Positions 20,209-59,445 of a stretch of 64,000 bases of DNA are shown piece by piece. The stretch's first letter is position 1. Each line of letters starts with the position of its first letter. The position numbers and the translations under genes were made by a program. The notes under the pieces are model-generated. The model did not search any database. It was given only the letters and a program-made list of their open reading frames with translations, and had not been told where the DNA came from. Location: NCBI RefSeq assembly GCF_000715495.1, contig NZ_JNLX01000196.1:1-64000 (forward strand). The letters are read 5' to 3'. Source of the stretch: Hymenobacter sp. IS2118. Lineage in GTDB: Bacteria; Bacteroidota; Bacteroidia; Cytophagales; Hymenobacteraceae.

Positions 20209-21213
20209 CTACTCCAGCTCGCCGCGCAGGGCAAACACCCGCCGCAGGTTGCGCACCAGCTTCGCCGACTCATCAAAATCCAGGGTTTGCTGGCCATCTG
20301 AAGCGGCTGTTTCGGGGGTTTCGTGGGTTTCGTACACGATGCCGTCGGCACCGGCCAGCACGCCGGCCAGGGCCATGGCCGGCACGTACTCCCGAATGCC
20401 AATGCCGTGCGAAGGGTCCACGATGACTGGTAAGTGGCTTTTCTCCTTCAGAATAGGTACCGCGTTCAGGTCCAGCGTATTGCGGCTGGCCGTTTCGAAG
20501 GTGCGAATGCCTCGCTCACATAAAATCAGCTTTTCGTTGCCGCCCGAAAAAACGTATTCCGCCGACGACAGCAGTTCCTCGATGGTACCCGAAATCCCAC
20601 GCTTAATCATCACCGGCTTGTCCACGCCTCCCAGGGCGTCGAGTAGGTTGAAATTCTGGGTATTGCGGGCGCCCACCTGAAACACGTCCACGAAATCGTG
20701 CATCTCTTCTACCTGCGACACCTGCATTACTTCGGTCATTATTTTGATGCCGCGCGCCCGCGCCATGCTGTGAAACAGCCGCAAGCCGTCCATGCCTAGG
20801 CCACGGAACGAGTAGGGCGACGAGCGGGGCTTGAAAACGCCACCGCGCATCAGGCGCACGCCGTTTGCCGTTAAGTGGTCCATCACCTTCTCCATCTGGG
20901 CTTCGCTCTCGATGCTGCACGGGCCGGCGCACAGGGCCAGCGTGCCTTCGCCAATGGTTACGCCGTCGCCCAGGTCGAGCACCGTGGGCTTCACGCGCCA
21001 CTTGCGGCTTACCAGCTTGTAGTCGTCCGACACGCGGTGCACATCGCGCACGCCCGGCAGCTGGCCAATGGTGCGAATGTCGATTTCCTTCTTCCCAATG
21101 GCCACCAGGTAGTGCGCGTGTTGGGTCGTCACCTCGGTGGCTTTATAGCCTTGCTGCTTCAGGTGCTCACTAATGGCGGGCACCACGGCCGCGTTTTCAA
21201 GTTGAATTATCAC
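20209..21213 (-). CDS. aroF: 3-deoxy-7-phosphoheptulonate (DAHP) synthase, type I-beta
   Basis: This 334-residue enzyme catalyses the first step of the shikimate pathway, joining phosphoenolpyruvate and erythrose 4-phosphate. Residues 1-70 are a ferredoxin-like regulatory domain of the Thermotoga DAHPS type, which in that enzyme binds Tyr/Phe. The TIM-barrel core shows LCAGPCSIES, GVRLMRGGVFKPRSSPYSFRG, QVGARNTQNF, KRGISGTIEE and VIVDPSHGIGIRE. It is the last gene of the trp operon, 109 bases after trpA, which couples precursor supply to tryptophan synthesis. Feedback by aromatic amino acids is inferred from the N-terminal domain. Confidence 0.95.
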   Translation of the reverse strand: MIIQLENAAVVPAISEHLKQQGYKATEVTTQHAHYLVAIGKKEIDIRTIGQLPGVRDVHRVSDDYKLVSRKWRVKPTVLDLGDGVTIGEGTLALCAGPCSIESEAQMEKVMDHLTANGVRLMRGGVFKPRSSPYSFRGLGMDGLRLFHSMARARGIKIMTEVMQVSQVEEMHDFVDVFQVGARNTQNFNLLDALGGVDKPVMIKRGISGTIEELLSSAEYVFSGGNEKLILCERGIRTFETASRNTLDLNAVPILKEKSHLPVIVDPSHGIGIREYVPAMALAGVLAGADGIVYETHETPETAASDGQQTLDFDESAKLVRNLRRVFALRGELE

Positions 21214-21248
21214 GGATTTAGTCGGATTGGGCGGATTTCACGGATTGA
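21211..21248. repeat. CACGGATT-type dispersed repeat (copy A)
   Basis: CACGGATTTAGTCGGATTGG, then GCGGATTTCACGGATTG, lies between aroF and trpA. Related strings occur at 44152-44190 and 58763-58825. The left end touches the aroF start codon. Confidence 0.6.
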
Positions 21249-21322
21249 TTGCTTCTTCTTTATAGCAGCAAATCGATTTTTTTGGGCAAGCATTTCTGCC
21301 TGGGTTGGTATGGAAGGCTTTT

Positions 21323-22102
21323 TTATGCCTTGATGCCTTGCACGAACCGGGTGGCCGTGGCGGGTGCATCGTCGGTATCGCCGAGGGCTCGGATGAGAGC
21401 CGAGCCGATAATGGCGCCATCGGCGTGCGCACAAGCATGGTCGAAGCCGGATTTATCAGCGATGCCAAAGCCAATCAGGCGCGGGTTTTTTAGGTTCATA
21501 GCCGCGATGCGCTGGAAATACTCCTGCTGGGCTTCCACGTCGGGGAGCGTGGTACCACCCGTGGTACCGGGGCCGGATACGAGGTAAAGGAAAGCGTCCG
21601 ACAGGGCATCGAGCCGCCGGATACGCGCCTCCGACGTCTGTGGCGTAACGAGAAACACGGCCTTCACCCCGTATTGCTGGAAGAGCGGATGGTACATTTC
21701 CTCGTACTCGTCCAAGGGCAAGTCGGGCAAAATCAGGCCATCAATGCCCACTTCCGCCGCCTGCTTCAGGAAGGCTTCCATGCCAAACTGCAGCACGGGA
21801 TTCAGGTAGCCCATGAGCAAAACCGGCGTTTCGGGCACGGCGGCCCGCAACTCCTGCAATTGCCCAAACAGCACCGGCAGGTTCATGCCATTAGCGAGGG
21901 CCGCCGAGCTGCTGCGCTGAATAACCGGCCCATCGGCCAGCGGGTCTGAAAACGGCATGCCAATTTCGAGAATGTCGGCGCCGGCCGCCACCAGCGCCTG
22001 GGCCAGCGGCAGGGTATCGTGCAGGCTGGGGTAGCCGGCTGTGAAGTACATGTTGAGCAGGTTTTGCTTGCTCGCAAAGGCGTCTTTGATTCGGTTGTTC
22101 AT
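21323..22102 (-). CDS. trpA: Tryptophan synthase alpha subunit
   Basis: This 259-residue TIM barrel cleaves indole-3-glycerol phosphate to indole, which passes to TrpB. The ATG at 22102 (MNNRIKDAFASKQNLLNMYFTAGYPS) is chosen because the longer frame upstream consists of a direct repeat. The catalytic Glu lies in ILEIGMPFSDPLADGPVIQ (with the Asp), the second acidic residue in DGLILPDLPLDEY, and the phosphate loop is in YLVSGPGTTGG and GFGIADKSGF. It is the seventh structural gene of the reverse trp operon. Confidence 0.96.
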   Translation of the reverse strand: MNNRIKDAFASKQNLLNMYFTAGYPSLHDTLPLAQALVAAGADILEIGMPFSDPLADGPVIQRSSSAALANGMNLPVLFGQLQELRAAVPETPVLLMGYLNPVLQFGMEAFLKQAAEVGIDGLILPDLPLDEYEEMYHPLFQQYGVKAVFLVTPQTSEARIRRLDALSDAFLYLVSGPGTTGGTTLPDVEAQQEYFQRIAAMNLKNPRLIGFGIADKSGFDHACAHADGAIIGSALIRALGDTDDAPATATRFVQGIKA

Positions 22103-22113
22103 GGAAATTTTCT

Positions 22114-22154
22114 CGCGGAGGTTCGCAGAGGAAAAGCGCGGAGGTTCGCAGAGG
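22114..22154. repeat. Direct repeat CGCGGAGGTTCGCAGAGG x2 before trpA
   Basis: Two exact 18-base copies at 22114-22131 and 22137-22154 lie between trpB and trpA, five bases apart. The right copy continues into GTCGGTC. Not found elsewhere in this window. Confidence 0.8.
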
Positions 22155-22195
22155 TCGGTCAATGCAGACCACTGCGTCATCCTCGGCGGGAAATG

Positions 22196-23392
22196 TTAGG
22201 TGAGTTTGTCCATGTTTTTGAGGTACGTCTCCAGGTCTTTGTCGCCGCGACCCGAGAGGTTCACTACCACCACATCATCAGGTCCCGCGCCCAACTGGCC
22301 CAGCGCCGCCAGCGCGTGCGCCGTTTCCAGCGCTGGAATAATGCCTTCGAGGCGGCTGCACTCGCTCACGGCTTTCAGGGCGTCATCGTCGGTGATGGAA
22401 ATAAATTCAGCCCGGCCCGAAGCGTCCAGGTGCGCGTGCAGCGGGCCGATGCCCGGATAATCCAGGCCGGCGCTCAGCGAATAGGGCTCCGTAATCTGGC
22501 CGTGCTCATCCTGCATCAGCAGCGTGCGGCTGCCGTGAATAATGCCCGGCGTGCCCAGCACCGACGTAGCCGCCGAATGTCCGGAATTGATGCCATGGCC
22601 CGCCGCTTCCACCGCCACCAGCCGTACCGAAGGCTCGTCCAGAAAGTGGTAAAACGCGCCGGCCGCATTGGAGCCGCCGCCCACGCAGGCCACCACGAAA
22701 TCGGGCAGCTCGGTACCGGTTTTTTCCAGTAGCTGGTAACGCATTTCCTCACTGATAACGGCTTGCAGTCGCGCCACCAAATCCGGGTACGGGTGCGGGC
22801 CCACCACCGAGCCGATGATGTAGTGCGTATCCACGGGGTTGGCAATCCAGTCGCGGATGGCTTCGTTGGTGGCGTCTTTCAGGGTTTGGCTACCGCTTTC
22901 GGCGCGGCGCACTTCGGCGCCCAGCAGGCGCATGCGGGCCACGTTAGGCGCCTGCCGCTCAATGTCCACGGCACCCATATATACTACGCACGGCAGTCCC
23001 ATCAGAGCGCATACGGTGGCCGTGGCCACGCCGTGCTGCCCGGCCCCGGTTTCGGCAATGATGCGCGTCTTACCCAGCCGCTGCGCCAGCAGAATCTGAC
23101 CCACGGTGTTGTTGATTTTATGCGCGCCGGTGTGGCAGAGGTCCTCGCGCTTGAGGAAAATCCGGGTGCCGTAGCGTTCCGACAAGCGCTTGGCTTCGAA
23201 CAGCGGCGTGGGCCGGCCCACATAGTCGCGCAGCAGGTGCTGCAAGTCGATTTGAAAATCCGGGTCGGCCAGGATTTCCAGATAGCGGGTGCGCAGCTCT
23301 TCCACGTTGGGGTAGAGCATTTCGGGAATGAAGGCGCCGCCGAATTCGCCGTAGTAGCCGCGGGCCGTGGGTTGTTGGTAAGATGGTGTCAT
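22196..23392 (-). CDS. trpB: Tryptophan synthase beta subunit
   Basis: This 398-residue PLP enzyme condenses indole and serine to tryptophan. Seen here: the N-terminal [15 protein letters not shown], the PLP Lys in [13 protein letters not shown], the substrate carboxylate loop [11 protein letters not shown], and the phosphate-binding [10 protein letters not shown]. Length is normal for TrpB1. The stop of trpF lies 29 bases upstream of its start, so the two are cotranscribed. Confidence 0.98.
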
Positions 23393-23421
23393 GGCAATTA
23401 TCGATGACGTTTGGTTAATTT

Positions 23422-24150
23422 TTAACGAGTCTCAGTAGGCCGCAACGCGGCCAGCATCTGCCCTAGCCGGCCGGCGTCTTTCACACCGGGCGCGGTTTCG
23501 AAGGTGCTGTTCAGGTCCACGCCCACCAAGCCGGGCAGCCGCAGGGCAACCAGCTCGGCAGCGTGTTCCAGGCCCAGCCCGCCGGCCAGAAAATACGGTA
23601 CGGGCAGATTGTAGGTCTTTAACAAATCCCAGTCGAAAACGGCTCCGTTGCCGCCGGGCGCAGCCCCTTTGGTATCGAAAAGAAAGAAGTCACAATGCGG
23701 CACATACGGCAGTAGCGCGGCAAAATCCACGGCCTTGCCCACCGAAAAAGCTTTCATCACGAGCAAGCCGGCCTCGCTTAGTTCCTCGCATTGCGTTGGG
23801 GATTCCTGGCCGTGCAGCTGCACGGCCCCCAGCCCAAACCGTGCGGCGGTGGCCCGAATCGTCTCGGTGGTTTCATTCACGAAAACCCCCACCCGCCAGA
23901 TGCTCGCGGGCAGCGCACGCACCAGTTCCGGGGCCAGCGCCTCGCCCACAAAGCGCGGCGAAGCAGGTGCGAAAATGAAGCCCAGAAAGTCGGGTAGCAG
24001 CGCCGCCACGCCGGCCAGCGCCGCCGCATCGCGCATGCCGCACACCTTCACCAACAGCCGCGAAGGTCCCGCTGCCGAGGCCAGACCAGCGGGCACGGGC
24101 AACCCGGCCGCCAAGGCAATATCAACAGGCAAATGGCGCGGCGTTTTCAT
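23422..24150 (-). CDS. trpF: Phosphoribosylanthranilate isomerase
   Basis: This 242-residue enzyme performs the Amadori rearrangement of phosphoribosylanthranilate, the third step of tryptophan synthesis. The catalytic Cys is in [10 protein letters not shown] (about residue 37) and the catalytic Asp in [18 protein letters not shown] and [16 protein letters not shown] form the phosphate site and C terminus. It carries about 30 extra N-terminal residues ([20 protein letters not shown]...) compared with compact TrpF proteins, so an internal start nearer the Cys motif is possible, though no in-frame ATG lies before it. Confidence 0.94.
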
Positions 24151-24188
24151 CTTTAGAGCGGTTTCGAGGTAGGGGCATTTTTCAGAGG

Positions 24189-24263
24189 GAATTAAAAATG
24201 AGGAATTAAAAATTGACAGTTTGACGGTCCGATTTTTAATTTTTAATTCTTCATTTTTAATTC
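24189..24263. repeat. AT-rich inverted repeat between trpC and trpF
   Basis: Arms 24189-24214 and 24238-24263 pair over 26 bases with one mismatch; both are AATTAAAAAT-type sequence. Similar strings occur at 60690-60811. It could fold in the operon mRNA. Confidence 0.75.
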
Positions 24264-24299
24264 TGTTAATGGCGTGGCGTTTTCATCTTTCGAAGCGGG

Positions 24300-25118
24300 T
24301 TAGGCGAGGAGGGCTGTTTTGGGCAGGGCCGCGATTTCCTGCACCAGCGCGGCACAGGCGCGTTCGGGGCGGGCGTTACGCATGAAAGCTTCGCCCAGCA
24401 GGAAGCCGCGGTAGCCCACCTCCCGCAGCTGCCCAATGGACGCCGCAGTGGAGATTCCGCTCTCCGAAACTTTCACAAATTCATTCGGAATAGCGGCGGC
24501 CAGCTCCAACGAGGTATCCAGGCTCAGACTGAAATCGTGCAGGTTGCGGTTGTTGACGCCCACCAAATCCACTGCCTCGGCGTGTACCGAGCGGGCTAGC
24601 TCTTCGCCGTCGTGCACTTCCAGCAGCACTTCCAGGCCCAGCGAACGCGCCAGGCTGCCCAGGGTTTTAATTTCTTCGGGCGTGAGCACAGCGGCAATGA
24701 GCAGCACAGCGTCGGCCCCAATGCTCTTGGCTTCGAGAATCTGATACTCATCCACCACAAAATCTTTGCGGATAATGGGGCAGAAGTTGAAACGGCGCGC
24801 GGTGGTCAAATCCTCATTTTTACCGCCAAAAAACTCGGCATCAGTAAGGATAGAAAGTGCCGCTGCGCCGGCTTGCATGTAGCCCAGCGTGGTGCGCTCC
24901 ACGGGTGCGTACTGATTAATCCAGCCCTTGGAAGGCGACTTGCGCTTGAATTCCGCGATGAGGCCGCTGCCATTTTCCCGCAGCAAATACTGCCGCAACG
25001 ACAGGGGCTGCGACTTAAAATACAGGCTACTTTCGAGCAACTTCACGGGCACCAGCTCGCGGCGGGCAGCCACTTCTTTGCGCTTGTGCGCAGTGATGGT
25101 TTGGAGGATGGTGGACAT
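24300..25118 (-). CDS. trpC: Indole-3-glycerol phosphate synthase
   Basis: This 272-residue TIM barrel closes the indole ring. Seen here: the N-terminal IAEFKRKSPSKG with the catalytic Lys, ILTDAEFFGG, PIIRKDFVVDEYQI with the second Lys, LLEVHDGEELARS with the Glu, VGVNNRNLHDF and the C-terminal SESGI and GFLLGEAFM. It is monofunctional, not fused to trpF. Its start codon is flanked by an AT-rich inverted-repeat region separating it from trpD. Confidence 0.97.
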   Translation of the reverse strand: MSTILQTITAHKRKEVAARRELVPVKLLESSLYFKSQPLSLRQYLLRENGSGLIAEFKRKSPSKGWINQYAPVERTTLGYMQAGAAALSILTDAEFFGGKNEDLTTARRFNFCPIIRKDFVVDEYQILEAKSIGADAVLLIAAVLTPEEIKTLGSLARSLGLEVLLEVHDGEELARSVHAEAVDLVGVNNRNLHDFSLSLDTSLELAAAIPNEFVKVSESGISTAASIGQLREVGYRGFLLGEAFMRNARPERACAALVQEIAALPKTALLA

Positions 25119-25254
25119 TTTATTTAATTAATAATTACGAATTAATAATTATTAATTAGCAAGAACAAGTACCTGTTTTTCAACAGGCAATAATCAGCGA
25201 GAGCAAGCGTCGCATCTCGCTGATTATTAATTACTAATTGCTAATTGCTAATTA
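25119..25254. repeat. Nested inverted repeats between trpD and trpC
   Basis: The 136-base gap is built of AATTAATAATT-type strings at both ends that pair with each other, around an inner perfect 14-bp stem (25189-25202 with 25215-25228, core AATCAGCGAGA). It is unusually AT-rich for this genome and could pause polymerase or be a processing site in the trp mRNA. Confidence 0.7.
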
Positions 25255-26250
25255 TTAATTAATTGAAAGCATGGTTTCGAATGCCCGCCGGGCCGCGCCC
25301 GAATCTAAGGATTCGCGGCTTTGGGCCAGGGCATCGTCCCAGCTCAGGCCAGGGCGGGCGCATTGCAGCGCCAGGGCAGCGTTGGCGGTTACGACGTTGC
25401 GCTGGGCGGAGGTGGCGCTCCCGTCCAGCACCTGCTTGAAGATGGCGGCTGAAGCGGCCACGGTGCTGCCGCCGGCCAGGTCGTCGGCCGTGCAAGCGGT
25501 CAGGCCCAGCGTTTCGGCCGTCACCATTTGTTCGCCGGTGTGGGAGGAAACCACTTTGGCGGGGCCGGTCAGGGCCAGCTCGTCGTAGCCGTCCAGGGCG
25601 TGCACCACGGCGTAGCGCGTGCCGGTGGGCTGCATCAGGTAGTGGTAGAGCCGTTGCAGCTCCAGGCTGAACACGCCGAGCAGCTGAGCGGCCGGCCGGG
25701 CCGGATTCACCAGCGGCCCCAGGATGTTGAAGAACGTGCGGACGCCCAATTCCCGGCGCACCGGGCCGGCGTGCCGCATGGCCGGATGGAAGGCCGGCGC
25801 GTGCAAAAAGCAGATGCCCGCCCGCTCCAGCTGCCGCCGCAGCTGGTCGGTAGTGGCCTCAAAGTCATACCCAAAATGGGCCAGCACATTCGAAGCCCCG
25901 CACACCGACGACACGCCAAAATTGCCGTGCTTGGCCACCTGCACGCCCGCCCCGGCCACCACAAAGCAGGCCAGCGTGGAAATGTTGATGGTGTCCTTGC
26001 CGTCCCCGCCCGTCCCCACAATGTCGAGCACTTCGGTGGTACCCAGCTGCGGGTCGCGGCTCAAATCCAGCAGTGCCTGCCGGAAGCCCGCCAGCTCCGC
26101 CACCGTAATGGGCCGCATGCGGTACACCGCCAGAAAGGCGGCCGTTTCGGCGGGGTTGGCCCCGCCCTCGCCCAGCTGCCGCATGGCCGCGTGCGCCTCG
26201 GCGTGCGTCAGGGGCTGGTGGTCAAACAGTTTATTGAGAATGTGTTTCAT
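25255..26250 (-). CDS. trpD: Anthranilate phosphoribosyltransferase
   Basis: This 331-residue enzyme transfers the phosphoribosyl group of PRPP to anthranilate. The family signature DIVGTGGDGKDTINIST (PRPP/anthranilate loop), KHGNFGVSSVCGASNVL and the LGPLVNPARP block are all present. It is not fused to the glutamine amidotransferase, which is a separate gene (trpG) immediately upstream in the operon. Confidence 0.97.
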   Translation of the reverse strand: MKHILNKLFDHQPLTHAEAHAAMRQLGEGGANPAETAAFLAVYRMRPITVAELAGFRQALLDLSRDPQLGTTEVLDIVGTGGDGKDTINISTLACFVVAGAGVQVAKHGNFGVSSVCGASNVLAHFGYDFEATTDQLRRQLERAGICFLHAPAFHPAMRHAGPVRRELGVRTFFNILGPLVNPARPAAQLLGVFSLELQRLYHYLMQPTGTRYAVVHALDGYDELALTGPAKVVSSHTGEQMVTAETLGLTACTADDLAGGSTVAASAAIFKQVLDGSATSAQRNVVTANAALALQCARPGLSWDDALAQSRESLDSGAARRAFETMLSIN

Positions 26251-26254
26251 CTTT

Positions 26255-26366
26255 TAGCTGTTAGCTAGTAGCTGTTAGCCATTAGCTTCCTTTGTTACGG
26301 CTACTCGCGAATTGTTAAAGTCTGTTAGAGAAAAGCTAACAGCTAATGGCTGTCAGCTAATAGCTA
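26255..26366. repeat. TTAGCTGTTAGC inverted repeat between trpG and trpD
   Basis: Arms 26255-26288 and 26333-26366 are imperfectly complementary over about 34 bases made of iterated TTAGCTGTTAGC units. The right arm overlaps the trpG stop codon. A single related string lies at 40045-40070. Confidence 0.7.
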
Positions 26367-26933
26367 CTTCAACCAGTTTTCCAGCATTTTGTGGCCGTGC
26401 TCGGTCAGAATACTTTCGGGGTGGAACTGCACGCCGCGCACGTCGAACTGCCGGTGGCGGAAGGCCAGGACCTCGCCATTGGCGTCGCGGGCGGTGGTTT
26501 CCAGCTCGGCGGGCATGGTTTCGGGGCGCACGGCCCAGGAGTGGTAGCGGCCCACCTGAAAGCGGGGCGGCAGCCCGGCAAACAGGCGCTCATCGGGCGC
26601 CGTTACTTCCGCTTCGTTGGCCACGCCGTGCAGCACGGCGGGCATGTTGTAGAGCGTGGCCCCGAAGCTCTCGGCCAGACCCTGATGGCCCAGGCACACG
26701 CCCAAAATGCGTTTGGTTGGCGCGTACTGCTTGATAATCTGTGGCATCAGGCCCGCCTCGGCCGGGATACCGGGGCCGGGCGAAAGCATGATGGCATCAT
26801 ATGCCTCCACGGCGGCCAGGGGCAGCTGGTCGTTGCGGGTCACGGTCAGGTTGGCGCCGTGGCCCAGCTCGCGCAGCAGATGCACCAGGTTGTAGGTGAA
26901 GGAATCGTAGTTATCGAGAACGAGAATTTTCAT
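26364..26933 (-). CDS. trpG: Anthranilate synthase component II (glutamine amidotransferase)
   Basis: This 189-residue class I amidotransferase supplies ammonia to TrpE. The triad is visible as Cys80 in GVCLGHQGLAESFG, and His171/Glu173 in VQFHPESIL. The SPGPGIPAEAG oxyanion loop is intact. It is the size of the stand-alone trpG/pabA type and begins 23 bases after trpE, so it may also serve folate synthesis, as the dual-use PabA does; that is inference. Confidence 0.96.
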   Translation of the reverse strand: MKILVLDNYDSFTYNLVHLLRELGHGANLTVTRNDQLPLAAVEAYDAIMLSPGPGIPAEAGLMPQIIKQYAPTKRILGVCLGHQGLAESFGATLYNMPAVLHGVANEAEVTAPDERLFAGLPPRFQVGRYHSWAVRPETMPAELETTARDANGEVLAFRHRQFDVRGVQFHPESILTEHGHKMLENWLK

Positions 26934-26956: not shown

Positions 26957-28381
26957 CTACTTAACATCATTAGCGGCAACAAGCGCTGCCCGGAGCGCGC
27001 CCAGCTTGTGGTGCACCTCCTCCAGCTCCGACTGCACGCTGGATGCGGCCACCACGCCGGCGCCCGCCTGGAAATACAGCTGGTTGCCCGTGCTCAAAAA
27101 CGAGCGTATCATGATGGCGTGGTTGAAGTTGCCATCGAAGCCCAGGTGGCCGATGCAGCCGCCGTAGTAGCCGCGGGCCGTGGGCTCCAGCCCGTCGATG
27201 AGCTGCAAAGCGCGGTGCTTGGGGGCGCCCGAGAGCGTGCCGGCCGGGAAGGTGTCGGCCACCACTTGCAGGGTGTCGGTACCGGCGTCAAGCTCGGCCG
27301 TGACGTGGCTGACGAGGTGAATGACGTGGGAGTAGAACTGGATTTCGCGCAGGGTACGCACTTTTACCTGGGTGCCGTGGCGGGCCAGGTCGTTGCGGGC
27401 CAGGTCCACGAGCATCACGTGCTCGGCGTTTTCCTTGGGGTCGGCGGCGAGGCGCTGGGCGGCGGCGGCATCGGCGGCATCATCGCCGGTGCGGCGATAG
27501 GTGCCGGCAATGGGGTACAGGCTGGCTTCGCGGCCCTGCACCAATACCTGCGCTTCGGGCGAGGAGCCGAAAATTTTATAGTCGCCGTAGTCGAAATAAA
27601 ACAGATAAGGCGAGGGATTGATGGAACGCAGCGCCCGGTACACGTTGAATTCATCGCCGGAAAACTCCTGCTGGAACCGGCGCGAGAGCACAATCTGAAA
27701 TACGTCGCCGCGCAGGCAGTGGGCCTGGCCCTTGGTGAGGCGCGCCAAGAACTCGGCATCGGTCTGGTTGCTGGCCTCCTCTCCTACCGTGGCAAAGTTG
27801 AAAACCGGCACACTGGGGTTGCGCACGAGGTTTTCGAGCCGTTCCAGGCCACCGGGTTGGGCTTCCTGCCCGGCCACGCCGTGCTCAAACAGAAACAGCT
27901 CCTGCCGGAAGTGGTTGAAGGCAATGACGTAGCGGTACACGCCGTAGCGGATAAGGGGCACGTCGCCGGCCGGCACTTTTTCGGCATCGAAAGTCACGTC
28001 TTCAAAGCTCTGCACGGCCTCGTAGCCCATGTAGCCGAAGAGCCCAGTGTTGATGAACGGCATTTTGGCCGCGGAGGCATCGGGCACAAAGGCGGCGGCG
28101 AAGGCCCGCAGCTCGGCCAGCGCCTGGCGCGGTTCGGGCAGCTGCTGGCTCGTGGTGCGGCCGTCGGGAAACGACTGACGCAGTTCGCCGCCACGCCGCA
28201 ACTCAAACGTGGCCAGCGGCTCGCAGGCCAGGTAGCTGAAGGCGTTTTGCTGGCCGTGATAGTCGGCACTTTCCAGCAGCAGGCAATTAGAGAACTGGTC
28301 GCGAAGGCGCAGGTACAGGCCCACCGGCGTCACGGTGTCGGCAAGCAGGCGGCGGTGGGCAGTGGTGAGTTGGTACGACAC
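26957..28381 (-). CDS. trpE: Anthranilate synthase component I
   Basis: This 474-residue chorismate-utilising enzyme catalyses the first committed step to tryptophan. An N-terminal LLES element (residues 35-38, SNCLLLESADYHG) is the tryptophan feedback-binding motif of TrpE. The C-terminal chorismate-binding block includes IVLSRRFQQEF, PIAGTYRRTGDDA, ENAEHVMLVDLARNDL and TFPAGTLSGAPKHRA. The frame opens with GTG at 28381; no upstream ATG is in frame. It is the first structural gene of the operon, 57 bases downstream of the leader terminator. Confidence 0.97.
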   Translation of the reverse strand: MSYQLTTAHRRLLADTVTPVGLYLRLRDQFSNCLLLESADYHGQQNAFSYLACEPLATFELRRGGELRQSFPDGRTTSQQLPEPRQALAELRAFAAAFVPDASAAKMPFINTGLFGYMGYEAVQSFEDVTFDAEKVPAGDVPLIRYGVYRYVIAFNHFRQELFLFEHGVAGQEAQPGGLERLENLVRNPSVPVFNFATVGEEASNQTDAEFLARLTKGQAHCLRGDVFQIVLSRRFQQEFSGDEFNVYRALRSINPSPYLFYFDYGDYKIFGSSPEAQVLVQGREASLYPIAGTYRRTGDDAADAAAAQRLAADPKENAEHVMLVDLARNDLARHGTQVKVRTLREIQFYSHVIHLVSHVTAELDAGTDTLQVVADTFPAGTLSGAPKHRALQLIDGLEPTARGYYGGCIGHLGFDGNFNHAIMIRSFLSTGNQLYFQAGAGVVAASSVQSELEEVHHKLGALRAALVAANDVK

Positions 28382-28437
28382 GGAACGGGTGAGTTGGCAG
28401 GCGAGGCAGGCGTTGAACCTGCGTTGGAGTAAAATGC

Positions 28438-28465
28438 AAAAAGCCCGGCTGGCGGCCGGGCTTTT
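28438..28465 (-). terminator. trp attenuator terminator
   Basis: A perfect 11-bp GC-rich stem (28465-28455 with 28449-28439 on the reverse strand, loop of five) is followed by U5. It lies 31 bases after the trpL stop and 57 bases before trpE, where an attenuator terminator belongs. Confidence 0.93.
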
Positions 28466-28477
28466 GTGGTCAAAAGC
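28460..28477 (-). promoter_or_regulatory. Candidate trp anti-terminator stem
   Basis: GCTTTTG (28477-28471 on the reverse strand) pairs perfectly with CAAAAGC (28466-28460) across a four-base loop. It uses six bases of the terminator's 5' arm, so the two structures exclude each other. Confidence 0.55.
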
Positions 28478-28496
28478 AAAATCAAAGGTGACTTCG

Positions 28497-28568
28497 CTAG
28501 GCGCACAGGCAGGCCGGTCCGATGTTTCGGAGCTGCCACCACCAAGCCTGGGAAGTACGATGTATCAT
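28497..28568 (-). CDS. trpL: trp operon leader peptide with three consecutive Trp codons
   Basis: An ATG at 28568 opens a 23-codon frame reading MIHRTSQAWWWQLRN and ending CLCA before a TAG at 28497. Three adjacent TGG codons lie at positions 9-11. The frame starts about 25 bases after the predicted transcript start (-7 box at 28607-28600) and is followed by an anti-terminator-like stem and a terminator before trpE. This is the arrangement of ribosome-mediated attenuation: ribosome stalling at the Trp codons when charged tRNA-Trp is scarce would let transcription continue. It is too short for routine gene calling. Confidence 0.92.
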   Translation of the reverse strand: MIHRTSQAWWWQLRNIGPACLCA

Positions 28569-28599
28569 GATTGGATAAGCGCTTTTCTGAAACGCGACG

Positions 28600-28607
28600 C
28601 AAAGATA
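28600..28607 (-). promoter_or_regulatory. trp operon promoter, -7 box TATCTTTG
   Basis: On the reverse strand TATCTTTG is an exact match to the TAnnTTTG consensus. TTGC lies 22 bases upstream as a loose -33 element. The predicted start near 28593 leaves about 25 bases before the trpL ATG. Confidence 0.7.
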
Positions 28608-28761
28608 TGGCGCCTTTTTTGAAAAAGCAGCAACCGCATTCAAAAAATCATGCAATAGTGGCAGCATATGTTCAGTATCGTCAACAGTATCACAAACTAA
28701 GCGTTTTACTTTTTACATTGATAGCCATAAGCTTTCAGCTACAGGCCGCGCGCTAATTCGA

Positions 28762-29949
28762 TTACTTACTGGCCTGCCCCTTGCCCGGCATCGCGCGAAA
28801 CAGAAACTGATAAGCTGCCGGAAACTCCCGCTGCCAGAACCACTCCCGGTGCTGGCCGTCGACAGGGGCGTGCAACGACAGGTTGGCGGCCGGTACGCCC
28901 TGGGCGCGCAGCTTGTTGCGCCAAGCCGCCATGAGCGGCAGCATGGTTTCGGATTCCTGGGGGCCGCACACGAAGTAAAAGCGGGTGCTGCGGGCGGCGG
29001 GGTGCGTTTTGGCAAAAGCGAGCAGCGAGTCGTTGCAAACCCAGAAGGCCGGCGAAAAAGCGCCCACCCGGCCAAAAACCCGTGGGTATTTCAGCGCAGC
29101 ATACACCGAAATCAGTCCGCCCAGACTGGACCCGGCAATGCCGGTGTGCGCGGCGTCGGGCCGGGTGCGGTAGCGGGCGTCGACGTAGGGCTTGAGGGTG
29201 CGGGCCAAAAAATCGATGTAGGCCCCACCCTGACCGCCGGCTTTGATTTCGGCATTGCGCCAGGGAATGTATTCATCGGAACGGTGCTGGCTGTCGTTGT
29301 CCACGGCCACCACAATGCAACTCGTAGGGTCCTGGCCCAAGGCGTGGAGGCGGTCCAGGGTTTCGTCCACGCCCCACTCGCCGCTGTAGCTGGTGGCTTC
29401 GTCGAACACGTTCTGGCCGTCGTGCATGTAGAGCACGGGGTAGCGCCGCCGGGGCTGCTGGGCATAGTCGGCGGGCAGGTACACCAGCACGCGGCGCGTG
29501 CGGCCCAGCTCCGGAATCTGAAACTGCTCATTCAGCACCTGCACCTGCGGCGAGGCCGTGTGCTTTTTGGTCGCCGCCGGGCCGGGCTGGCTCCAGGCCA
29601 GAATCTCGTGGGTGACGACGGCCGCCTGGTGCAGGTCGGCTTTGCGGTTGGCAATGGGCGCGTTGGCGGGGCCGGCTTCGGCGGTTTCCCAGCTGCCACG
29701 AGTGAACTTGTATTCCACGGCCCCCAGGCTGGCAGGCAGGGTAATCTGATAGGTTCCGTCATCGCCTTTGGTGAGGCGATAGGCGGGATTGCGCGGGTTC
29801 CAGACGTTGAAGGAGCCCGCTACGAAGAGCGTATCATTCGCGGCAGTAGTGGTTGGAACACGGGTTACTTTTAAAACCGTCTGGGCGGCAATTGGTACTG
29901 CAAGCGCGGAAAACCCCATCAAGCCCAAAATCAACAACACGCGCATCAT
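28762..29949 (-). CDS. Exported alpha/beta-hydrolase esterase with N-terminal CBM48-like domain
   Basis: The start at 29949 gives 395 residues with a signal peptide (MMRVLLILGLMGFSALAVPIAAQ). Residues about 25-100 resemble a glycogen-binding/CBM48-type beta sandwich (DTLFVAGSFNVWNPRNPAYRL, YQITLPASLGAVEYKFTRGSW). The rest is an esterase D/enterochelin-esterase-like hydrolase: YPVLYMHDGQNVFD, the nucleophile Ser in GIAGSSLGG, and a His near the end in DGQHREWFW. Such proteins hydrolyse esters on sugars or siderophores; here the CBM-like domain and the nearby glucan locus favour a carbohydrate ester, as inference. Next to trpL but transcribed in the same direction from its own upstream region. 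Confidence 0.82.
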   Translation of the reverse strand: MMRVLLILGLMGFSALAVPIAAQTVLKVTRVPTTTAANDTLFVAGSFNVWNPRNPAYRLTKGDDGTYQITLPASLGAVEYKFTRGSWETAEAGPANAPIANRKADLHQAAVVTHEILAWSQPGPAATKKHTASPQVQVLNEQFQIPELGRTRRVLVYLPADYAQQPRRRYPVLYMHDGQNVFDEATSYSGEWGVDETLDRLHALGQDPTSCIVVAVDNDSQHRSDEYIPWRNAEIKAGGQGGAYIDFLARTLKPYVDARYRTRPDAAHTGIAGSSLGGLISVYAALKYPRVFGRVGAFSPAFWVCNDSLLAFAKTHPAARSTRFYFVCGPQESETMLPLMAAWRNKLRAQGVPAANLSLHAPVDGQHREWFWQREFPAAYQFLFRAMPGKGQASK

Positions 29950-48741: not shown

Positions 48742-49220
48742 GTGATGGGTCGCCCCACCGCGGCGGCCAACGCAAGAAGGCCGACGAGGAAAGTCCGGGC
48801 AACGCAGAGCACCCTGCTTCCTAACGGGAAGGACTGGCAAGTATAATGCGAACCAGGACAGCCAGTGCCACAGAAAAGTACCGCCGGTTTTAAAGGGCAG
48901 GCGGGTAAGCGGATGAGGGGGTAGGAGTTTTTAACTCAAGCCCTCCTACCCCCTCACCCGCTTACCCTAGAAACCGGTAAGGGTGAAAAGGTGCGGTAAG
49001 AGCGCACCAGCGGGCGGGTGACCGTTCCGGCTGGGTAAACCTCAGGGGTTGAAAGACCAAATAAGCTGGTACGCCGGCGCTTCTTCGGAAGCATCGGCAC
49101 CGGGCGGCTCGTTCGGCGCCAGCGGGTAGGTTGATGGAGCCTTTCGGCAACGACTGGCCTAGATAAATGGTGGGGCAACTGCCTCGGCAGTGGACAAAAC
49201 CCGGCTTACAGACCCATCAC
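48742..49220 (+). ncRNA. rnpB: RNase P RNA, bacterial type A
   Basis: The catalytic RNA that matures tRNA 5' ends. The 5' GTGATGGGTC (48742-48751) pairs with 3' GACCCATCAC (49211-49220) as helix P1. Conserved elements are GAGGAAAGTCCGGGC (from 48788), ACAG...GTACCGCC (48870-48885), AAGGGTGAAAAGGTG then GGTAAGAGCGCACC (about 48979-49006), AGATAAATGG (near 49160), and ACAAAACCCGGCTTACAGACC near the 3' end. It is about 479 bases long, more than typical type A RNAs, because of a 25-bp hairpin at 48903-48966 in the P12 position. The small reading frames inside are not genes. A terminator follows at 49228-49261. Confidence 0.96.
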
Positions 49221-49227
49221 CTGACCT

Positions 49228-58923: not shown

Positions 58924-59445
58924 ATGAAAAATACCCCTTCTGAGTCTTCTACCGCAGTTGCTGCTGCTTACACCGTCCCGGCCCAGACGCGCATCGGCCA
59001 CGTGCACTTGCAGGTAACGGACCTTGAGAAAGCCTTGGCGTTTTACCGCGACCTGCTTGGCTTCACGGTGATGCAGCGGTTTGGGAATCAGGTGGCGTTT
59101 ATCTCGGCTGGCGGCTACCACCACCACATCGGGCTCAATACCTGGAACAGCCTGGGCGGGGCGCCCGCCCGCAAGCACGGCGCCGGCCTTTTTCACACCG
59201 CTATTCTGTACCCCACGCGGGCCGATTTGGCGCGGGCGGTCCGGCAGCTGGTGGCGGCTAATTATCCCCTCACCGGCTCGGCCGACCACGGCGTTTCGGA
59301 AGCCGTGTACTTGGACGACCCCGACGGCAACGGCGTGGAGCTGTACTGGGACCGGGCGCCGGAGCTGTGGCCCCTCACGTCCAGCGGCGAAATTCAGATG
59401 TATACCCGCTCCCTGGATATGAACGGGCTGCTGGCCGAGCAATAA
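58924..59445 (+). CDS. VOC-family (glyoxalase/extradiol dioxygenase-like) protein
   Basis: This 173-residue protein of the vicinal oxygen chelate fold has two beta-alpha-beta-beta-beta modules: IGHVHLQVTDLEKALAFYRDLLGFTV with the first metal His, YHHHIGLNTWNS with the second, and SEAVYLDDPDGNGVELYWDR with the Glu. The metal site is that of a catechol-2,3-dioxygenase-like protein, but single-domain VOC proteins may be dioxygenases, isomerases or resistance proteins. A Thr/Ser/Ala-rich N terminus precedes the fold (about residues 1-20). Substrate unknown. Confidence 0.88.
   Translation: MKNTPSESSTAVAAAYTVPAQTRIGHVHLQVTDLEKALAFYRDLLGFTVMQRFGNQVAFISAGGYHHHIGLNTWNSLGGAPARKHGAGLFHTAILYPTRADLARAVRQLVAANYPLTGSADHGVSEAVYLDDPDGNGVELYWDRAPELWPLTSSGEIQMYTRSLDMNGLLAEQ

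Follow-up and report, generated by a model that had tools for sequence, protein, structure and literature searches.

The window, the whole 64,000-nucleotide stretch of Hymenobacter sp. IS2118 DNA that was analysed, contains a tryptophan operon. NCBIfam models match above their cut-offs for trpG (a subfamily model), trpD, trpC, trpB, trpA and the DAHP synthase gene, and below them for trpE and trpF; the best match of trpE, to TIGR00564, scores 390 bits, under the cut-off of 517.7. Between an open reading frame that ends at 28762 and trpE, which has its GTG start at 28381, all elements of an attenuator are present on the minus strand (positions 28438-28607), with the end of the terminator about 57 nucleotides upstream of the trpE start. 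The features are the following, with the regions of the attenuator numbered in the usual way:

28600-28607, minus strand: -7 box TATCTTTG, of the Bacteroidota sigma-A type (TAnnTTTG)
28497-28568, minus strand: leader peptide frame MIHRTSQAWWWQLRNIGPACLCA, 23 codons, ATG at 28568 and stop codon TAG at 28499-28497
28500-28543, minus strand: 1:2 hairpin, -18.8 kcal/mol, from the fold and the pairs in the alignment of the window's clade
28504-28521, minus strand: antiterminator region 2, CGGaCCGGcCUgccUGUG, from the fold, with no broken pairs in 26 distinct sequences of the window's clade
28475-28498, minus strand: P2 hairpin, 10 base pairs, nested within the 2:3 antiterminator, from the fold and the alignment
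28453-28468, minus strand: region 3, CACA..AG.CCGGCCG, partner of region 2 and common to the terminator 5' arm, from the fold
28438-28465, minus strand: intrinsic terminator (3:4), AAAAGCCCGGC CGCCA GCCGGGCUUUU followed by U5, -18.7 kcal/mol
28460-28477, minus strand: stem named in the preliminary description, GCTTTTG (28477-28471) with CAAAAGC (28466-28460), present and not conserved
26957-28381, minus strand: trpE (anthranilate synthase component I), the first structural gene
20209-26933, minus strand (as trpE): trpG, trpD, trpC, trpF, trpB, trpA and DAHP synthase, in this order after trpE

PMC9723704 is the source of the TAnnTTTG consensus and of its position between -12 and -5, and transcription would be expected to start near 28595. 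The leader frame contains three TGG codons, codons 9 to 11, at 28544-28536 on the minus strand. The 1:2 hairpin is made up of region 1 (28543-28527), which lies over the Trp codons, and region 2 (28522-28500), while the 5' arm of the P2 hairpin begins within the leader stop codon. The terminator has an 11-base-pair stem (28465-28439) and a run of five U (28442-28438). A short frame rich in codons for the product of the operon, with three TGG among 23 codons and presumably translated, is located between promoter and first gene, and an intrinsic terminator (28465-28438) between this frame and trpE. The preliminary description had listed, upstream of trpE and in this order, a -7 box, an ATG frame of 23 codons with TGG at each of residues 9-11, a stem and an 11-base-pair terminator with U5. 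All of these are read there; the strand, which it did not state, is established here as minus.

Chance is excluded as the source of the Trp leader. The gene trpE was found in 118 of 120 Hymenobacter genomes, and 115 upstream regions were taken, making 116 with the window; the regions left out are that of the window's own genome, covered by the window, and two partial matches. To count as a leader, an ATG frame had to contain TGGTGG and be no longer than 45 codons. Such a Trp-Trp leader is present in 115 of the 116 regions, the conservation of the TGG run in relatives being a check that the preliminary description had proposed, and 100 of the 116 contain TGGTGGTGG, with three Trp. Dinucleotide shuffles of the same regions gave a Trp-Trp leader in 20 of 5800 cases and a three-Trp leader in none of the 5800; the antisense strand of these regions contains a Trp-Trp frame in 3/116 and a three-Trp frame in 0/116, and other 330-nucleotide stretches of L001-L080 in 37 and 4 of 2776, respectively. 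When the definition also took Trp residues one or two apart, a Trp-rich leader was found at 79 of 80 trpE loci from Bacteroidota, the best-scoring ones in a genome collection and ten of them from Hymenobacter; since L083-L197 and L001-L010 overlap partly, with some contigs of equal length, the Hymenobacter and 80-locus counts are not independent. The only Hymenobacter region of the 116 where the Trp-Trp leader is absent is L114 (genome G097), and the sole exception among the 80 loci is L042 (Pontibacter pamirensis), upstream of 3001. Both have relatives with a leader, and their attenuator may be lost or placed elsewhere. The leader of the window folds better than its own shuffles (z -2.77, none of 200 shuffles as good). 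A second short frame with TGGTGGTGG in the window, at 59126 on the minus strand, is antisense to a 173-residue open reading frame and is taken as chance.

The promoter box and the terminator are also conserved. Of the 115 Hymenobacter leaders, 98 have a consensus -7 box 28-51 nucleotides upstream of their ATG (1.5% in shuffled segments), the exact consensus being absent in all 17 leaders of the group called g3 below. Outside the genus, the box is present in 38 of 65 leaders and absent in the other 27. By script, a terminator was found downstream of 114/115 Hymenobacter leaders, a count in which L124 was scored from a different Trp-Trp frame than its leader; the remaining one, L144, has a terminator with one mismatch, recognised by eye. 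In the set L011-L080, a terminator follows 65 of 69 leaders by script and three more by eye, and one is masked. In a blind scan the window terminator is unremarkable, with four terminator-like sites in 3 kb and 3.5 expected; it stands out by its place and its conservation, not by its scan score. In 27 of the 65 non-Hymenobacter leaders (for example L031, L041 and L079), the UGA stop codon lies within GUGA and the terminator 5' arm and loop hold UCAC. With the stop codon in GUGA facing UCAC, a terminating ribosome would therefore sit on the antiterminator itself.

For the folds of the window leader, the RNA as far as 12 nucleotides beyond the first base of the codon holding the ribosome was treated as blocked, and the remainder was folded. 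When the ribosome occupies the third Trp codon and the terminator 3' arm is as yet unmade, CGG.CCGG.CU...UGUG (28521-28504) pairs with CACA..AG.CCGGCCG (28468-28453), enclosing P2; the CCGG pairs of this 2:3 helix have a probability of 0.93-0.95. Moving the ribosome to the stop codon yields the terminator (-19.3 kcal/mol). When the terminator 3' arm is present, the probability of 2:3 is 0.0001 even with a stalled ribosome, and because the terminator wins at equilibrium once this arm exists, antitermination must be kinetic. Folding, which the preliminary description had proposed as a check, thus reveals mutually exclusive 1:2, 2:3 and 3:4 structures. Region 2 is common to 1:2 and 2:3 and region 3 is common to 2:3 and 3:4, and the arrangement is therefore the classical one. 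By computation, the antiterminator is exclusive with the terminator and favoured on stalling, its pairing not being significant for the window alone.

The pairings were compared in three groups of Hymenobacter leaders: g1, the window's clade (the window and L083-L108; 27 sequences, of which 26 are distinct); g2, the larger part of the remaining genus (69 sequences in the alignment, 70 in the shuffle test and 65 in the codon count); and g3 (L180-L196, 17 sequences). L114, L144 and L179 were omitted from the group alignments, as were duplicate rows, and L109-L113 were kept separate from g2. Among the 26 distinct g1 sequences, no 2:3 pair is broken; one cell is a gap, and a single sequence has a two-sided change at one pair. 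The structure was predicted on the same alignment that was used to score the pairs, which leans the result towards this structure; there is almost no two-sided covariation in g1. In P2, several pairs change and stay paired in these 26 sequences, with one two-sided change and one broken cell. When P2 segments are compared with shuffles, the mean z is -1.8 in g1, -1.0 in g2 and +1.1 in g3. P2 is supported in g1, weakly in g2 and not in g3.

In g2, the codons of region 2 are frozen at silent sites (GGA in 65/65, CGG in 65/65 and TCC in 63/65), and for the Ala codon before the Trp run all four codons are used. The carboxy-terminal part of the peptide is conserved within g1 and within g2. In g3 the peptide differs (MSFFATVSQSWWHSTFPRG and similar) and the terminator differs too; here region 2 (GG.UGAGCA...GGC) is complementary to the arm and loop of the group's own terminator (GCC...UGCUCACC), and in all 17 leaders this match exceeds that of shuffles. 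These 17 genomes of the Hymenobacter genus have a divergent trpE, with 62-64% identity, and many of their leaders read MSFxATVSQSWWHSTFPxG. They may form a separate lineage, or their operon may have been acquired.

Against shuffled region 2, the 2:3 duplex reaches p <= 0.05 in 0/27 g1 and 0/70 g2 leaders, with z -0.03 and p 0.435 for the window, and in 14 of the 65 leaders outside the genus. Tests of this pairing have little power due to the GC-rich sequence. After this single-sequence test, a permutation test was run on 26 of 179 leaders, hand-picked as one or a few per lineage: their own region 2-region 3 pairings sum to -320 kcal/mol, and none of 20000 permutations is as low (mean -244, standard deviation 12). 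With region 2 reversed, the sum for the 26 leaders is -239 kcal/mol. When all 26 candidate partners of a region 2 are ranked, the true one comes first for five leaders and within the first three for 13, and for the window it is 13th. Complementarity between regions 2 and 3 thus characterises the leaders as a set, and for the window by itself it is based on fold and conservation, not on significance.

The leader of the window most likely controls the trp operon by ribosome-mediated transcription attenuation, following the classical three-way logic. The elements, their conservation and the mutually exclusive folds are observed by computation, and comparison of the sequences argues for ribosome-mediated attenuation. 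What we infer beyond this is where transcription starts, that the leader is translated and the ribosome stalls on it, that polymerase and ribosome are coupled, and that tryptophan affects read-through. RNA polymerase would start near 28595 and a ribosome would begin the leader peptide. When charged tRNA-Trp is scarce, the ribosome would stall on codons 9-11 and cover region 1, so that region 2 (28521-28504) would be available to region 3 (28468-28453) and the two would pair, enclosing P2, before the terminator 3' arm exists; the 2:3 helix would then block the terminator, and trpE and the genes after it would be transcribed. When tryptophan is plentiful, the ribosome would reach the stop codon and cover this codon and the P2 5' arm, disturbing 2:3, so that the terminator (28465-28438) would form and transcription would end about 57 nucleotides before trpE. 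If the leader is not translated, 1:2 and 3:4 would form, again leading to termination.

The preliminary description had also proposed attenuation by a ribosome on the Trp codons, and this part is supported by the conserved Trp codons, terminator and promoter box and the exclusive folds. Its antiterminator is not supported, nor is its inference that a 2:3 pairing is missing. In its account the role of antiterminator falls to the short GCTTTTG/CAAAAGC stem (28477-28460), in place of the classical 2:3 pairing. In the window this stem indeed has all its pairs and, as had been described, shares bases with the terminator 5' arm; it is worth -5.8 kcal/mol alone, and it forms once the ribosome has reached the stop codon, as long as the terminator 3' arm is unmade. 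However, this is the high-tryptophan state, which should terminate, so the stem forms the wrong way round for antitermination, while with the ribosome on the last Trp codon its pair probability in the window is at most 0.001. Nor would a stem of -5.8 kcal/mol be likely to hold off a terminator of -18.7 kcal/mol. Its conservation, which had been suggested as a check, is poor: all seven pairs are present in one of the 27 g1 sequences, the window itself, and at least six in nine of the 27. The 2:3 pairing, on the other hand, is seen in the stalled fold with its CCGG pairs at 0.93-0.95 and is unbroken in the 26 distinct g1 sequences. The short stem is rejected as antiterminator for its poor conservation and the wrong state, and a switch that does without 2:3 pairing is very unlikely.

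We also consider it unlikely, if somewhat less so, that the leader is translated and conserved for another purpose, such as aiding trpE translation or supplying a trans-acting peptide, and that the terminator is constitutive. There is precedent for such a peptide in peTrpL of Sinorhizobium meliloti, a leader peptide with a trans function (PMC7298713), and reinitiation at leaders has been proposed (PMC4833913); the carboxy-terminal part of the peptide is moreover kept within g1 and g2. But the silent sites of these carboxy-terminal codons are frozen, which speaks for the RNA and not for the peptide, and g3 and other families keep the Trp run without the remaining peptide. The leader stop codon is also 115 nucleotides away from trpE, against a peak distance of 11-14 base pairs given for Bacteroidetes in PMC4833913. 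The least probable of the alternatives, with only the slimmest of chances, is a leader that binds a metabolite or protein (a T-box, a TRAP-like system or a new riboswitch) and so controls the terminator, the frame with the three Trp codons being incidental. The leader is structured, as its z of -2.77 against shuffles indicates, but no Rfam family reaches its gathering score there, and none of 13 weak Rfam matches up to E 10 is a T-box; the gathering scan and the matches up to E 10 thus give no T-box assignment for the window leader. The Trp run, which is what the leaders share across families, would be unexpected for an incidental frame.

Around other amino-acid operons of the window's genome, nothing like a his or ilv leader was found within about 1.5 kb on each side, little sequence being covered. 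In the hisG stretch, one 32-codon frame contains a Trp pair, at a long distance from the gene; in the ilvD stretch, two nested frames contain three Phe codons, likewise distant from the gene. No frame with a His run was found. Upstream of ilvD (L228:1256-1350), inverted, imperfect repeat copies are arranged around CGCAGAGGT/ACCTCTGCG and are REP-like. The window also contains a class A RNase P RNA at 48742-49224 on the plus strand (Rfam RF00010, 251.4 bits).

In Xanthocytophaga flavus, a tRNA-Trp gene with anticodon CCA is located between the attenuator terminator and trpE (L012:2894-2967). A tRNA-Trp gene is present at the same place in genomes G121 (L221:412-485) and G122 (L220:625-699), preceded by a Trp leader with its terminator and followed by trpE, so that all three genomes of the Xanthocytophaga genus have this extra, divergent tRNA-Trp at the trp operon. 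It has 87% identity in the most distant Xanthocytophaga genome, and each of the three genomes has a second tRNA-Trp gene elsewhere, with 74-75% identity. ARAGORN predicts a cloverleaf with discriminator G and an encoded CCA for the trp-operon gene, and among 60 of the 80 loci L001-L080 it finds a tRNA in L012 only. When this tRNA was searched for at the level of the order, in 390 genomes sampled from a larger group, there were 16 matches at E <= 1e-7, three of which are from the Xanthocytophaga genus; the five inspected of the 13 others have no trpE within 3-4 kb, with tRNA-Thr near in all five and tRNA-Gly in three. The phrase 'tRNATrp gene' is absent among the matches listed in the literature search. 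A tRNA-Trp behind a tryptophan attenuator would, if expressed, be a new twist on trp control.

A broader reading can be put forward tentatively: one ancestral leader-peptide attenuator of trpE may run through much of the Bacteroidota, its regions 2 and 3 rewritten in each lineage and yet complementary, and in Xanthocytophaga a second, divergent tRNA-Trp may have been captured as the first gene behind it. If so, the kinship would be visible in the Trp run and the logic, and not to one covariance model, and part of the tRNA-Trp supply of Xanthocytophaga would itself be under tryptophan attenuation.

The literature search for Cytophagales with leader peptide and attenuation found no report, subscription papers being mostly outside its scope. 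Bacteroidota leaders may already be listed by Lopatovskaya and co-workers (2010), a study cited in PMC4833913. For another member of the Bacteroidota, Flavobacterium psychrophilum, PMC9723704 draws on mapped starts and on structured 5' regions and describes strong clues that amino-acid biosynthesis operons are preceded by leader-peptide attenuators. The kind of regulation is that proposed for the window; unlike here, the main text of that paper contains no word beginning with 'trp', and its passages considered here describe no 2:3 pairing.

The Rfam family RF01692 (Bacteroid-trp) is the Bacteroidete tryptophan peptide leader RNA of Weinberg et al. 2010 (PMC2864571). It does not match the window at its gathering score of 49 bits, nor up to E 10 in 28340-28760, and none of the three Hymenobacter loci among 20 relatives tested is matched. 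Five of the 20 are matched at the same place (L016, L029, L044, L070 and L079), all of which we take to be Flavobacteriaceae. The window does answer to the family's description, a leader with adjacent Trp codons upstream of Bacteroidota trp genes. The Hymenobacter leaders are like RF01692 in their location 5' of trpE, their phylum and their ATG leader with a UGGUGG run, and the alignment of L029 likewise has the Trp-codon arm paired downstream (1:2) and an unpaired tail that is the terminator 5' arm. They differ from it in sequence and terminator, and the RF01692 model draws no 2:3 antiterminator. They are probably related to this family and work like it; since its score is not reached, they are not placed there.

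In E. coli, the trpL leader has 14 codons with two Trp. The corresponding Rfam family, RF00513 (Trp_leader), is aligned to the window by cmscan with 18.7 bits (E 0.28), below its gathering score of 41. The window shares with trpL the adjacent Trp codons, the 1:2, 2:3 and 3:4 alternatives and a GCCCG..CGGGC terminator with a U run, while its leader is longer, with 23 codons and three Trp, and has an extra hairpin, P2, over the stop codon and within the 2:3 helix. The attenuator is of a known kind, and the Hymenobacter leaders, reached by neither RF01692 nor RF00513, are new. They extend this kind of regulation to Hymenobacter and to other Bacteroidota loci that the Rfam model missed here, and, with the earlier antiterminator corrected, they offer a defined 2:3 switch for which changing a few bases would serve as a test.
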